Origin: Flavobacteriia bacterium
GTDB lineage: Bacteria; Bacteroidota; Bacteroidia; Flavobacteriales; Flavobacteriaceae
Length of the DNA stretch: 33,890 nucleotides
Direction of reading: 5' to 3'
NCBI GenBank assembly: GCA_030625645.1
Contig: DAOUQH010000007.1
Location: 1 to 33,890 of the forward strand
Part shown: piece after piece, positions 7,233 through 23,563 of the stretch
Layout of the letters: each line of letters starts with the position of its first letter
How positions within the stretch are numbered: the stretch's first letter is position 1
Notes under the pieces: generated by a model
The model's database searches: none
What the model saw: the letters and a program-made list of their open reading frames with translations, nothing else
What the model was told of the DNA's origin: nothing
Position numbers and translations under genes: made by a program

Positions 7233-8231
7233 TTACACAAAACTTCTAAAAACTGTATATCTCAACAGCATTTCAATAAAAATCAAGAAACCTGCAAATA
7301 GCACAAAAGGTCTAAACTTCTCATCATAATTATAATACTTAAGCTCCTCTATTTTGGTTTTTTCTAGTTTATTGATTTCATCATAAATTGATTCCAATTT
7401 TTTATTATTAGTTGCTCTAAAATATTTTCCATCGGTTTCTTTGGCAATAAATTTTAATAATTTTTCATCAATTTCAACCGGAGCATTTCTAAAAATTAAT
7501 TTTCCACTTGCATCCTTTGCTACAGGGAAAAGTGCGGTACCATTAGTTCCTAATCCTATTGTATAAACTTTAATTTCTAAATCTTTTGCCAATTCAGTAG
7601 CCGTTTTTGGATCTACAAATCCGGTATTATTAACTCCATCGGTTAATAAAATTATCACTTTACTTTTGGCCTTGCTATCTTTTAATCTATTTACAGCTGA
7701 TCCCAATCCCATTCCAATGGCAGTACCATCATTAATTTCACCCCAACGAATTTCTCTAATAGTGTTCAATACTATTCGCTTATCACTCGTAATTGGTGTT
7801 TTGGTAAAGCTTTCACCTGCATAAACTACAATTCCTATTCTATCATTAGGTCGTTGTTTTACAAATTTTGACGCAACAGCTTTTAAAGCTTCCAACCTAT
7901 TGGGTTTTAGGTCTTTTGCCAGCATACTTGCCGAAACATCAATTGCCATAACAATATCAATACCTCTGGTAGTTTTGGTCTTTTTACTTACTTCTACATT
8001 TCTTGGCCTTGCCAAAGCAATAATTAAAGATGATATCGCTAAAAGACGTAATAAATATAATAAGGGTTTTAATTTTGCTAATAAATTTGGTTGAGTAAAT
8101 CCTTTTGTTCCTGAAATAGATAATGTAGCACTTTCTTTTTTTCTTGTAAAGAAATACCAAGCAGCTATAATTGGCAAGAATAAAAATAGCCAAAGAAATT
8201 CCGGATTTAAAAATTCTAAATTACTTACCAT
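7233..8231 (-). CDS. batA: BatA: VWA-domain membrane protein
   Basis: 332 residues from the ATG at 8231 (MVSNLEFLNPEFLWLFLFLP); a GTG one codon earlier is less likely. The start overlaps the end of the upstream gene by 11 bases. Layout: hydrophobic helices at about 10-25 and 58-74, a VWA domain at about 85-290, and a C-terminal helix near 307-325 (FRPFVLFAGFLIFIEMLLRY). The MIDAS residues are present: DVSAS after GIDIVMAI, TPITSDKR, and LLTDGVNN. BatA and BatB are paralogues and are thought to interact in the membrane; MoxR is the partner ATPase encoded in the same operon. Confidence 0.94.
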   Translation of the reverse strand: MVSNLEFLNPEFLWLFLFLPIIAAWYFFTRKKESATLSISGTKGFTQPNLLAKLKPLLYLLRLLAISSLIIALARPRNVEVSKKTKTTRGIDIVMAIDVSASMLAKDLKPNRLEALKAVASKFVKQRPNDRIGIVVYAGESFTKTPITSDKRIVLNTIREIRWGEINDGTAIGMGLGSAVNRLKDSKAKSKVIILLTDGVNNTGFVDPKTATELAKDLEIKVYTIGLGTNGTALFPVAKDASGKLIFRNAPVEIDEKLLKFIAKETDGKYFRATNNKKLESIYDEINKLEKTKIEELKYYNYDEKFRPFVLFAGFLIFIEMLLRYTVFRSFV

Positions 8232-19658: not shown

Positions 19659-21071
19659 CTAAAACACCCTCCAAATCTGTGCTACTAAAAAAGTAACTAC
19701 AAACCCCATTATTAGCGGTAAAAGTGAGGCAATTACTGTCCATTTTACACTTTTGGTTTCTTTGTAAATTGTGTAAATAGTGGTGCTACATGGATTGTGT
19801 AATAAACTAAATAACATTACATTAACTGCCGTTAACAAGGTCCAACCTCCAGCTCTTAAAATTGTAGCTGTTTCGTTAACAGAATCTAATTCAAACATCA
19901 CACCTGCACCTTCTCCTCCTGAAATTCCGGTAACCATAACTGTTAACATTAAGATAGTAGGAATTACTATTTCATTTGCAGGTATTGCAACGATATAAGC
20001 TAGTAAAATTACTCCGTTAAGCCCTAATATCAGACCAAAACCATCTAAAGAATTTATAATCCAAGCAGCAATACTTTCATCGCCAATATATATATTTGAA
20101 ATCAACCAAATTATAGCACCTGCAGGTACAGCAAAAACCATGGCGCGCCATAGCACAATTAAAGTTCTATCGATTAATGAGGTATATATAGTTTTCCAAA
20201 TTCTAGGCGGACGATAAGGTGGTAATTCCAAGTTAAAAGTAGAAACTTCTCCTTTTAATACTGTTTTTGTCAATAACCACGAACTTAAAAACATAAACCC
20301 AATTCCTAAAATAGCAATACTTATTACGGCACTTACCGAAGCAAATCCTGATAAAGATGAAGGCACAACTGCACCAATAAAAATGGTTGCTATTAAAATT
20401 TGCGTAGGCCATCTACCGTTACAAAGTGAAAAATTATTAGTAATTATAGCTATCAATCGTTCTCTCGGGCTATCGATAATACGAGTGGCAACTACGCCAG
20501 CAGCATTACAGCCAAACCCCATACTCATTGTTAAAGCCTGCTTTCCGTGAGCTCCTGTTTTTTTGAATAAATAATCCATATTAAAAGCTACTCGTGGTAG
20601 GTAACCAAAATCTTCGAGCATGGTAAACAATGGAAAAAATATCGCCATTGGAGGTAACATTACTGCAATAACCCAAGCAAGTGCTAAATAAACACCATCA
20701 ATTAAAAATCCATCTAGCCACCATGGCATTCCGATACTTGCTGCAAAGGATTTTAAAATTGGATGTACATTATCCAATAACAACGTTGCTAACATAGAGG
20801 AAGGATAATTTGCTCCGATAATCGTAATCCAAAGTACCAAAGCCAAAACTAAAAACATAATGGGAAATCCCCAGATTTTACTAGTAACAATTTTATCGAT
20901 CTTAGCATCTAAACGAAAACTTTTTTTGCTGTTTTCAGTTGAAACTGAAGCACTAGCAATTTTAGCAGCATCAGCATAGATACTTTCTGTAAGGTGATCG
21001 TGTAATTCATCACCAATTTGCCAACGTAATTCATTTGCAAATTCTACAATATTTTCTACTTTTTTACTCAT
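19659..21071 (-). CDS. feoB: FeoB membrane-permease half (split ferrous iron transporter)
   Basis: 470 residues containing the two nucleoside-recognition (Gate) segments and the C-terminal region of FeoB, without a GTPase domain. After a soluble helical start ([20 protein letters not shown]) there are about eight to ten hydrophobic helices. Motifs: [31 protein letters not shown], and [19 protein letters not shown], the Cys-containing signatures of the FeoB pore. Its ATG overlaps the stop codon of the upstream GTPase gene (ATGA at 21068-21071), so translation is probably coupled. In most FeoB proteins both halves are one chain of about 700 residues; 254 + 470 = 724 here. Predicted role: inner-membrane Fe(II) uptake; another divalent metal such as Mn(II) cannot be excluded. 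Confidence 0.92.
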
Positions 21072-21832
21072 TCTACTATCAATTCACCAGATTCTAAAGC
21101 TTTAATAATTCTCTCATCTCCTTGTAATAATCGTAAAGCAATCCATGATTTATTTGGTAATTTTGGAAATTGTTTTTCTAATTCTACAACTAAATTATTT
21201 GTAGCCTTTTTTATATTTTTAGGAATATTAATCACATGATGAGCTTTGCACTTAATAGAACCATTTGCTACCCCTTCAATTGTTTGAATTAACTCAGGAA
21301 TTCCCCTATTATATCTCGCACTAGTAGCAACTACTGGAATTCCTAAATCACGTGATAGAGTTCTTTGGTCGATAGAAATATTATTTCGTTCAGCCTCATC
21401 CATCAAATTCAAACATAAAACTGCTTTATCTGTAATTTCTAGGATTTGTAAAACAAGGTTCAAATTCCGCTCTAAGCGAGAAGCGTCTACTACTACTACA
21501 GTCACATCCGGCTTACCAAACAAAATAAAATTTCGTGCAACCTCCTCATCATCAGATGTAGAAAGCAGAGAATACGTTCCTGGAAGATCAATCAATTTGT
21601 ATTTTTTATCATTATAAGCATACGCCCCTTCTGCTCTAATAACCGTTTTCCCTGGCCAATTACCAGTATGCTGACGCAAACCAGTTAAAGAATTAAAAAC
21701 CGTACTTTTTCCTGTGTTTGGGTTTCCTGCCAAAGCAATAACATAATCTACTTCCTCAACCTTAACACCCAATTTTTGCAAACCTTGCGCATTAAAATGA
21801 CCGCAAGTATCACATGCGCTATACTTTTCCAT
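21068..21832 (-). CDS. feoB: FeoB small GTPase half (split ferrous iron transporter)
   Basis: 254 residues, soluble. It opens with a Cys-bearing leader ([19 protein letters not shown]), followed by the G domain: G1 [17 protein letters not shown]2/switch region [16 protein letters not shown]3 DLPGTYSL, G4 NLMD, G5 near [11 protein letters not shown], then the GDI-like helical region ending [30 protein letters not shown] and [17 protein letters not shown] resemble stand-alone FeoB GTPases encoded in two-gene feoB systems of Firmicutes. It starts 14 bases inside the end of the DtxR-FeoA gene and ends in the ATGA overlap with the permease half. The CxxC-H leader could bind metal; that is inference. 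Confidence 0.93.
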
Positions 21833-22856
21833 TTTGGCTAGATTTTTTTATTAAAATATGAATTGCTTGTTCGTTACGCAAAGCAATTGTTGTCCCTTTT
21901 ATGTGATATCCCCTAGGATTATTCATTGGTCCGGTAAGATCGAGACTTACTTTACTTCCTTTTACAAAGCCAAGATCTAACAATCTTCTTCTAGCTTCTC
22001 CTCTACTTTCTTTTGAAATACTTATTATTTCTCCTGTTTCATTCTCTTTTAAACTCGATAACCTCACAAGATCTTTATCAATCTCTTCCTCATTGTCTAT
22101 TGTTAATACAGTAACATTTGCAGCAACAATCGGCGCTAGAATAAATTCTTCACCTTCTGCATAAAAAACTACTCTTTTCGAATTATTTTCAATTACCCTT
22201 ATATACGAACCTATATGAATATTCTCTGCCAAAATTTGTCTATATATCACATCGGGTTCATCCTCAATATGAATAATTTTTCCAATATCATATCTTTTTA
22301 AAGAGGATAGTGTAACTCCTCCAAGTTCTACAATTTCGCCAGTTTGTGTAGGTATCGGGTCACCATGTGGATCAAACATCGGATTTCCTAATTCGGATGC
22401 TAAAATATTGGTTGCTTTCTCATCTAACTTATGCTCCATCAATTCGGCTCTATCATGCCATTCCTTTTTATCATAACCTGTTTTTTCTGCCAAATATTTT
22501 TCCCACAAACGATGAACTCTTATAATTTTTAAAGCATATTCTCTTCCTGAGGTATTTAATTTGATAGAATTGCCTTGAGTAGAAATTAAATCTTTAGCTT
22601 CCATCTCTTTAACTGCTTCTAGTATATTAGTATCTTTAGATTTTAATACTCCAGAAAGAAACTCTATACCAACTTCTTTATCAGATATTTCACAATGATA
22701 AAGCTGTTTTAAAATATCTTCAATTACTATCTTTTTATTTTGTTTAAGACTATTCTTTAATATCCAATAATACCCTTTTACCGGACGAAATAATATCAAA
22801 AATATTGCTAAAAAAACAAAAAATAGTATCAACATGATTATCGGATTATAGCTCAT
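21819..22856 (-). CDS. Membrane-anchored DtxR-type regulator fused to FeoA domains
   Basis: 345 residues with an unusual order. Residues 6-28 form a hydrophobic helix (IIMLILFFVFLAIFLILF) followed by basic RPVKGYYWILK. Next is a winged-helix-like region (about 40-105), then the DtxR metal-binding/dimerisation domain with HRLWEKYLAEKTGYDKKEWH, RAELMEHKLD and NPMFDPHGDPIP (conserved His/Glu/His ligands retained). Then come two SH3-like FeoA units: about 178-255 (LSSLKRYDIGKIIHIEDEPD) and about 262-340 (VRLSSLKENETGEIISISKE...RRRLLDLGFVKGSKVSL). It lies 1 base after the soluble DtxR gene and overlaps the FeoB GTPase gene by 14 bases. It may serve as the FeoA partner of FeoB and/or a membrane-tethered metal sensor; whether it still binds DNA is unknown. 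Confidence 0.88.
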   Translation of the reverse strand: MSYNPIIMLILFFVFLAIFLILFRPVKGYYWILKNSLKQNKKIVIEDILKQLYHCEISDKEVGIEFLSGVLKSKDTNILEAVKEMEAKDLISTQGNSIKLNTSGREYALKIIRVHRLWEKYLAEKTGYDKKEWHDRAELMEHKLDEKATNILASELGNPMFDPHGDPIPTQTGEIVELGGVTLSSLKRYDIGKIIHIEDEPDVIYRQILAENIHIGSYIRVIENNSKRVVFYAEGEEFILAPIVAANVTVLTIDNEEEIDKDLVRLSSLKENETGEIISISKESRGEARRRLLDLGFVKGSKVSLDLTGPMNNPRGYHIKGTTIALRNEQAIHILIKKSSQNGKV

Positions 22857-22857
22857 A

Positions 22858-23514
22858 CTAAATTATTTTTACTAATAAGTTTTGTGCAACTTCAGATGAA
22901 ATTGTAAACTCATAATTTTTTGTTTTTATCAATACTGAATTATCAAATAATTCAATATTTTTCACTTTAATTTTATCTCCTAAAGCTAATTTTTTATTAT
23001 TCAAATACTTAAGAAAATCATCTGATGAATTTTTTAACCCTTCTAAAATTCCAAAATGACCAATTTCTAATTCTGACAGCATAAAAGTGTTGCTTTTTGC
23101 AATATTTCCTTCCTTATCGGGAATTGGATCTCCATGTGGATCAAATTTTGGTTTTCCCAAAAACTCATCTAACCTATCGATCAATTCATCCGACTTTACA
23201 TGCTCTAATTGCTCGGCTGTTTCATGAACTTCATTCCATGCAAAACCCAATTTATCTACCATAAAACACTCCCATAATCGATGACTTCTTATCACTTTTT
23301 TTGCATTAAATTCTCCTAATTTTGTGAGTTTTACTCCTCGATATTTTTTATAATTAACTAATTTTTTATCAGATAATTTCTTTAACATATCGGTAACTGA
23401 AGAAGCTTTAGTTTTAGTTTTTTGAGCAATATCATTTGTACTTACTAATTTGTTTTCTTCAAATTGTAAGCTAAAAATTATTTTTAAGTAATTCTCTTCT
23501 GATTGAGAAAGCAT
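22858..23514 (-). CDS. DtxR/MntR-family metal-dependent transcriptional regulator
   Basis: 218 residues, soluble. N-terminal winged helix at about 1-60 (LSQSEENYLKIIFSLQFEEN, TNDIAQKTKTKASSVTDMLK), then the metal-binding and dimerisation domain (VIRSHRLWECFMVDKLGFAW, EVHETAEQLEHVKSDELIDR, GKPKFDPHGDPIPD), then a C-terminal SH3/FeoA-like domain (LSELEIGHFGILEGLKNSSD). The C-terminal domain makes it closer to the DtxR/IdeR or long MntR type than to short MntR. First gene of the feo cluster; a perfect 16-bp palindrome 33 bases upstream of its start is the likely operator, implying metal-responsive autoregulation of the operon. Fe(II) versus Mn(II) specificity is not decided by the sequence. Confidence 0.93.
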   Translation of the reverse strand: MLSQSEENYLKIIFSLQFEENKLVSTNDIAQKTKTKASSVTDMLKKLSDKKLVNYKKYRGVKLTKLGEFNAKKVIRSHRLWECFMVDKLGFAWNEVHETAEQLEHVKSDELIDRLDEFLGKPKFDPHGDPIPDKEGNIAKSNTFMLSELEIGHFGILEGLKNSSDDFLKYLNNKKLALGDKIKVKNIELFDNSVLIKTKNYEFTISSEVAQNLLVKII

Positions 23515-23547: not shown

Positions 23548-23563
23548 TTTAGATATATCTAAA
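23548..23563. promoter_or_regulatory. Perfect palindrome, candidate DtxR/MntR operator of the feo operon
   Basis: TTTAGATATATCTAAA is a perfect 16-bp inverted repeat. Its half-site TTTAG and overall length resemble DtxR-family boxes (TTAGG...CCTAA type). It lies 33 bases upstream of the regulator's ATG and 79 bases from the divergent serine hydrolase gene. A minus-strand TATATTTA, one base off the Bacteroidota -7 consensus, sits immediately downstream, so a bound repressor would cover the promoter. Binding is inferred from position and symmetry. Confidence 0.65.

Follow-up and report, generated by a model that had tools for sequence, protein, structure and literature searches.

The nearest characterised relative that we found of the protein considered here is PgMntR (PG1044) of Porphyromonas gingivalis, a DtxR regulator with two FeoA domains, encoded by a 933-bp ORF in the operon of the manganese transporter FB2 (FeoB2), which holds three other genes (available text of PMC4805248). 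According to the same text, PgMntR is soluble, has its DNA-binding domain at residues 13-65 and an overall Kd for Mn2+ of 2.0e-11 M, and binds the promoter of its own operon in vitro both as the apoprotein and with Mn2+, an activity that is lost without the second FeoA domain; 41 homologues in 13 genera are reported, some of which may belong to the anchored family described below. Fusions of repressors to permeases are also known: in Chlamydia, YtgR acts as a repressor after being cut from YtgC, and permease-repressor fusions have been reported in 11 phyla (PMC5599777, in the part available). The premise of the preliminary description of our locus, that DtxR regulators are normally soluble and FeoA is normally separate, misses both PgMntR (PMC4805248) and fusions of the YtgC-YtgR type (PMC5599777), as the accessible portions of these papers describe them.

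FeoA is described as stabilising GTP-bound FeoB (PMC8980893) and as required for formation of the Feo complex (PMC8749426), each in the text available. The B. fragilis FeoAB fusion, like the window protein, uses a FeoA domain in the service of FeoB, but there FeoA is fused to FeoB itself and comes with neither a metal sensor nor an anchor (PMC8980893). The survey in that paper, as far as its accessible part tells, excluded DtxR-type FeoA fusions, and the words DtxR and split do not occur in the available text of PMC8749426, which deals with Feo evolution. In full-text searches of a library of papers outside subscription journals, we met with no account of a DtxR-FeoA protein that is anchored in the membrane and encoded next to FeoB. 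FeoC is a winged-helix protein. It is a small cytoplasmic binder of the FeoB G domain (available parts of PMC10710835 and PMC8749426), and differs from the window protein in that it is not a DtxR and has no such metal centre and no FeoA domain.

Architecture of the anchored DtxR-FeoA protein

The window, by which we mean the whole stretch of DNA analysed (33,890 nucleotides, from a Flavobacteriia bacterium), has the following features:

23548..23563, no strand: perfect palindrome TTTAGATATATCTAAA, proposed operator of the soluble DtxR (TTTAGN6CTAAA search)
22858..23514, reverse strand: soluble DtxR/MntR-type regulator, 218 aa (PF01325 1.6e-16, PF02742 1.7e-31, PF04023 9.5e-9)
21819..22856, reverse strand: membrane-anchored DtxR-FeoA protein, 345 aa, ATG start (ORF, Pfam, AlphaFold2, structure alignment)
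22785..22844, reverse strand: predicted transmembrane helix of that protein, residues 5-24 (hydropathy; AlphaFold2 helix 5-22)
22554..22727, reverse strand: winged helix, residues 44-101, with degenerate recognition helix (AlphaFold2, structure alignment, pairwise identity, HTH model)
22347..22553, reverse strand: metal-binding and dimerisation domain, residues 102-170 (PF02742; conservation in 56 fusions)
22347..22553, reverse strand: ligands of the metal-binding domain, H115 E119 H134 E138 E141 H142 D162 H164 (PF02742; conservation)
22098..22289, reverse strand: first SH3/FeoA-like domain, residues 190-253 (AlphaFold2, structure alignments)
22254..22271, reverse strand: HIEDEP motif, residues 196-201 (H196, E198, D199, E200 and P201 invariant, 56/56)
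21846..22067, reverse strand: C-terminal FeoA domain, residues 264-337 (PF04023; structure match to 7r7b)
21068..21832, reverse strand: FeoB G protein, separate 254-aa chain with N-terminal CxxC (PF02421 2.5e-61)
19659..21071, reverse strand: FeoB permease, separate 470-aa chain (PF07670, PF07664)

The soluble regulator, to judge by its sequence, is an ordinary DtxR. Its gene ends one base upstream of the fusion gene, the G-protein gene overlaps the 3' end of the fusion gene by 14 bases, and the permease gene overlaps the G-protein gene by 4; because the genes overlap or almost touch, the four products are probably produced together. Split FeoB alone was already known to annotators in Bacilli. 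The window's own genome also carries, at 4920-7265 of contig C6, a canonical FeoA (75 aa) followed by a full-length FeoB (703 aa).

With 345 residues and several domains, the fusion is unlike the small stand-alone cytosolic FeoA. Pfam places PF02742 at residues 103-170 (E=7.3e-24) and PF04023 (FeoA) in two stretches, the better at 264-337 (E=2.2e-19), with no match to PF01325 (DtxR HTH) at E<=1 and none to PF00950 (ABC-3 permease). An AlphaFold2 model made from a 29-sequence alignment (mean pLDDT 88.7, pTM 0.78) gives the order helix 5-22, winged helix, DtxR core, SH3 domain and FeoA domain. Residues 44-253 of this model superpose on the Mn-bound repressor 5zr6_B (VIA-align; Z 21.8, rmsd 1.7 A, 206 residues) and residues 264-339 on B. 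fragilis FeoA 7r7b (Z 13.6, 74 residues), and the SH3 unit at 190-253 aligns with the SH3 domain of DtxR/MntR. ScaR, SloR and MntR are soluble repressors. Their structures (3hrs, 5cvi, 5zr6) have the same three-domain fold and matching ligand positions, but they carry a single SH3 domain and their DNA-binding domain is functional. The composition claimed in the preliminary description is therefore borne out: the winged helix is predicted at about 44-101 and superposes on 5zr6_B together with the metal and SH3 domains, the metal-binding domain is intact and its ligands are near-invariant, the two FeoA-like SH3 units lie at 190-253 and 264-337, FeoB is split into two separate chains, and an N-terminal membrane helix is predicted by both hydropathy and AlphaFold2.

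The best 19-residue Kyte-Doolittle mean of the window protein is 3.25, starting at residue 5, with a charge of 0 on the N-terminal flank and +4 on the C-terminal flank; given the net positive charge after the hydrophobic segment, an N-out/C-in orientation is predicted. By the same prediction, a segment above 1.6 is found in 64 of 67 fusions and in none of the 61 soluble DtxRs of these loci, the three exceptions being L007 (stop, contig edge), L024 (frame break) and L030 (no segment). L007 and L024 are metagenome copies whose N-terminal region is broken, near the start in the one and upstream of position 8118 in the other. L030, from Flammeovirga pacifica, has a split FeoB, no membrane helix, and no soluble DtxR in the stretch examined.

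The anchor may derive from an ABC-3 permease-DtxR fusion, of whose permease only the last helix would remain. In Chlamydia YtgC-YtgR and the ABC-3 fusions, as in the window protein, the DtxR module comes immediately after a membrane helix belonging to a metal importer, and the last permease helix and linker of the ABC-3 fusions resemble the window anchor. When 1550 frames were searched with a profile of residues 1-43, two ABC-3 permease-DtxR fusions ranked first and second among the non-fusion frames (15.4 and 10.1 bits); however, the next row was an unrelated frame at 7.7 bits, and the ABC-3 fusions L075 and L124 were not among the best 25 rows, so that such an origin is suggestive only. Unlike the window protein, these fusions have a whole permease in the chain (PF00950, present in L075, the one on which Pfam was run) and belong to an ABC importer, and L075 is without the extra C-terminal FeoA domain. 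Among Bacteroidota, ABC-3 permease-DtxR fusions were seen in 4 of 296 genomes at E<=1e-70 (L075, L122, L123 and L124).

Distribution of the fusion and its place beside FeoB

A scan of genome contigs gave 30 relatives of the fusion, from Flavobacteria, Cyclobacteriaceae/Flammeovirga types, Ignavibacteria/Melioribacteraceae, candidate division KSB1, Calescibacterium and unplaced records. Among 345 Bacteroidota genomes, 37 carry the full-length fusion (at least 300 bits; next match 159 bits), and it is present in 24 of 199 genomes of the window's family; the matching FeoB G protein (at least 361 bits; next match 215) occurs in 41 of the 345, including all 37 with the fusion. Together, the window, the 30 scan loci and 36 loci from the genome set make 67 fusion loci, although the 30 and the 36 may share organisms. 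An artefact of one assembly is ruled out by these 67 loci, which include isolates (L011, Algibacter pacificus; L016, Polaribacter glomeratus; and L030).

Sequence beyond the fusion is available in 65 loci (in L009 and L026 the contig runs out), and in all of them FeoB lies downstream on that strand, at a median gap of -4 bases and within 30 bases in 63 loci. A fusion lacking any FeoB, which the preliminary description had named as the observation that would count against it, was thus found in 0 of 65. The same description set the fusion next to a split FeoB and proposed a survey of whether the two always go together; the split is no necessary companion: FeoB is split in 63 of the 65 loci and an unsplit single chain in L068 and L069, which rules out that the fusion always needs a split FeoB, and the FeoB of a Prevotella relative (below) is likewise a single chain. 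Of the 67 loci, 57 have a soluble DtxR gene ahead of the fusion on its strand and 10 show none in that position; of these 10, L007 begins at a contig end and L028 and L032 have less than 2 kb of upstream sequence.

What the fusion replaces is suggested by the four of the 41 genomes with the matching FeoB but without the fusion (L064-L067), in which a stand-alone FeoA gene lies directly before the G-protein gene; these loci also carry a soluble DtxR. No stand-alone FeoA was found in the fusion operon of any of the 67 fusion loci (ORFs of at least 45 aa, profile E<=1e-4); L004 and L008 do have one, but with a second, canonical FeoB nearby. Three of the four slot FeoAs share the sequence RRRLLDLG with the FeoA domain of the fusion and the fourth has RNRLLDLG; RRRLLDLG is missing from the canonical FeoAs of L004, L008 and L105, the last being that of the window's own genome. 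Because a stand-alone FeoA occupies the same slot and resembles the fusion in this motif, the C-terminal domain is most likely the FeoA of the matching FeoB, and the fusion the FeoA of its transporter. The earlier suggestion that FeoA contacts the GTPase gains support from this apparent replacement.

Prevotella sp. oral taxon 299 (L125, 6965-10205) encodes a 334-aa twin-FeoA DtxR with no clear membrane helix, judged by its N-terminus, followed by an unsplit 716-aa FeoB of the same type as that in the window, which shares 54.7% identity with the window G protein and 63.6% with the permease; this may be the P. gingivalis FB2 type. A profile spanning the SH3 and FeoA domains, searched against the 345 genomes for soluble twin-FeoA relatives, matched over both domains only in the 37 fusions, with one partial match in genome G298 (positions 24-157, 57 bits, 170-aa frame); at E<=1e-18, 98 genomes from a single order yielded none, in a search run without a positive control.

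Metal centre, DNA-binding domain and putative operator

PF02742 is present in all 29 members of the fusion alignment, which was built from 31 sequences less L007 and L024 with their broken N-terminus. By sequence, the fusion retains the complete two-site metal centre of DtxR/MntR. Across 56 fusions, H115, E119, H134, E141, H142, D162, H196, E198, D199 and E200 are invariant, and the remaining ligands nearly so: E138 is E in 55 and D in one, H164 is H in 55 and D in one, and D47 is D in 53 and N in three. D47, E138, E141 and H142 correspond to the Mn-type set D8, E99, E102 and H103 of BsMntR, as quoted in the available text of PMC4805248. E119, D162, H164 and D199 align with the second-site residues Glu80, Cys123, His125 and Asp160 of ScaR (names from the same text, with a one-residue numbering offset that we deduced); since D199 aligns with Asp160, the HIEDEP motif falls at the SH3 ligand position of known regulators.

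PgMntR and the window protein are alike in having a DtxR core followed by two FeoA domains and in sharing an operon with an FeoB. Numbered as in the available text of PMC4805248, 11 predicted PgMntR ligand positions (H85 to E170) equal the window positions minus 30 without a gap, the twelfth, Asp19, falls at an offset of +28, and Cys108 stands where the window protein has E138. The two differ in the membrane helix, predicted in the window protein; for PgMntR, the available text does not contain the word transmembrane, and we take the helix to be absent, in view of the DNA-binding domain at 13-65 and the high solubility given there. Taken with the Prevotella relative, the ligand match makes the window system look like a branch of the PgMntR/FeoB2 system in which the regulator is anchored and FeoB mostly split, with P. 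gingivalis compared by description only. Because PgMntR sits in a manganese FeoB operon, the metal of the window system may be Mn2+; by this analogy it need not be iron, and Mn2+ may be as likely a substrate as Fe2+.

PgMntR binds promoter DNA in vitro (PMC4805248, available text). The HTH of the fusion is degenerate. In 45 genome pairs (56 thinned at 75% identity, without L007 and L024, whose N-terminus is broken, and without loci lacking the companion), the mean pairwise identity of the turn and recognition helix was 25% in the fusion as compared to 50% in the companion DtxR, although that of the metal domain was similar in the two (61% and 58%, respectively), and HTH helices 2-3 together with the wing carried a mean net charge of -1.2 in the fusion and +2.5 in the companion. 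In the same comparison, the turn and recognition helix is the least conserved part among the folded cytosolic domains of the fusion. Pfam PF01325 was matched at E<=0.01 by 5 of 29 fusions and by all 15 companion DtxRs. An HTH model trained on 25 soluble DtxRs scored 67 fusions at a median of 8.4 and a maximum of 27.3, and 36 held-out soluble DtxRs at a minimum of 43.7 and a median of 76.5, training and test sets both being drawn from these loci. A recognition-helix signature was found in 0 of 67 fusions and 51 of 61 soluble DtxRs; as the pattern was drawn up after the sequences had been viewed, this count is descriptive, and the HTH model with its held-out DtxRs is the fairer of the two tests. 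By these comparisons, the recognition-helix signature of DtxR is lost in the fusion and kept in its soluble neighbour. The fusion HTH is no better kept in the 10 loci without an upstream DtxR (2.8-15.0 bits), and in the Prevotella relative it is equally degenerate (3.9 bits). Because PgMntR binds its promoter and the Prevotella relative is equally degenerate, a degenerate HTH may still bind DNA, and in the 10 of 67 loci without a soluble DtxR upstream the fusion may be the sole DtxR protein of the locus. We also considered whether the DtxR core of the fusion is a recent copy of its neighbour, and rejected this, as the fusion cores fall into one group and the soluble DtxRs into another in a tree (one FastTree, 47 sequences including 21 fusions, midpoint-rooted).

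In 29 of 61 loci the pattern TTTAGN6CTAAA stands in front of the DtxR gene, as compared to a mean of 0.98 and a maximum of 4 in 50 Markov shuffles; in one of the 29 (L067, without a fusion) the site lies inside the gene, and among the 57 fusion loci that have the upstream DtxR the palindrome precedes it in 28. The exact pattern is absent from the other 32 upstream regions; L010 and L076 among these belong to Flavobacteriales or to the window's family, the remaining 30 to more distant genomes. The window's own genome has 19 such sites against 10 for the reversed pattern, and none of the 19 is on contig C6, home of the canonical feoAB, so that no regulon could be drawn. With its conserved recognition helix and the palindrome, the soluble DtxR looks like the true repressor, as had been proposed.

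Possible roles of the fusion

Our main reading, to which we give a probability of about 55%, is that the fusion is the FeoA subunit of an FeoB2-type importer, that it carries a metal sensor of its own and is tethered to the membrane, and that its metal state controls engagement of FeoA with the G protein, so that Mn2+ or Fe2+ would be sensed at the importer and not at a promoter; control of the transporter instead of ordinary repression is the best-supported reading of the sequence comparisons. One could envision a chain sitting N-out/C-in, in which cytosolic Mn2+ or Fe2+ would fill the sites of the DtxR core, and the metal-filled core and the first SH3 domain, with its HIEDEP motif, would close on each other as in MntR/ScaR. 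Such closure would alter the contact between the C-terminal FeoA domain and the G protein of FeoB, and the altered contact would set the GTPase and transport rates as direct feedback, the soluble DtxR separately repressing the operon. Speaking against this reading are the promoter binding of PgMntR, the loci that lack a companion DtxR or the palindrome, and the missing membrane helix of L030 and the Prevotella relative. The fuller version, in which a DtxR core silenced for DNA gates FeoB through the fused FeoA domain according to cytosolic Mn2+/Fe2+, giving fast post-translational feedback on top of repression by the soluble DtxR, with the anchor perhaps an ABC-3 relic, is one that we hold tentatively, at slightly worse than even odds.

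It seems improbable that the fusion is still a transcriptional repressor, whether acting from the membrane or released by proteolysis as Chlamydia YtgR is from YtgC. Precedent speaks for it, in that PgMntR binds DNA (PMC4805248) and YtgR represses once cleaved off, with such fusions in 11 phyla (PMC5599777), both as given in the accessible text; the fusion is also predicted to keep the winged-helix fold, and 10 of 67 loci lack the upstream companion. However, its turn and recognition helix show 25% identity and its HTH and wing are net negative where the companions in the same genomes are conserved and positive, the signature is kept in none of 67 fusions, and it is the companion gene that the palindrome precedes in 28 of 57 fusion loci. 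The DtxR core could instead be a structural dimeriser that binds metal without regulating anything, leaving the fusion a membrane-tethered FeoA scaffold. Conservation of metal sites can reflect structure, and FeoA is needed for Feo complex formation (available text of PMC8749426), but both sites and the SH3 motif are conserved, seemingly beyond what dimerisation needs, and a stand-alone FeoA fills the slot in four genomes, so we regard a scaffold, too, as unlikely. A metal chaperone or delivery subunit, passing imported metal from FeoB to cytosolic acceptors, would make use of high-affinity sites tethered at an importer, and the Mn2+ affinity of PgMntR (PMC4805248, available text) speaks for this. 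No obvious acceptor is found in the four-gene set, however, where only these gene families were looked for. DtxR-type sites are, in the cases known to us, sensing sites, and we consider delivery very improbable.

If control through the FeoA domain is correct, a repressor fold has been reused as a transporter gate. The fusion bears on how FeoA acts on FeoB, on how bacterial divalent-metal import is shut down after synthesis of the importer, and on whether such FeoB systems carry Mn2+; with sensor and FeoA in one chain beside a separate soluble G protein, the metal dependence of the contact can be tested with purified parts.

A separate G protein with an N-terminal CxxC was seen in 63 of 67 loci, made up of 62 of 63 fusion loci (L073 is the exception) and one of four non-fusion loci, and the CxxC is a possible second metal or redox site. 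On a Cytobacillus plasmid (L126, 3775-6113), separate genes for FeoA, an FeoB small GTPase and a permease lie beside ZIP, CDF and ArsR genes.
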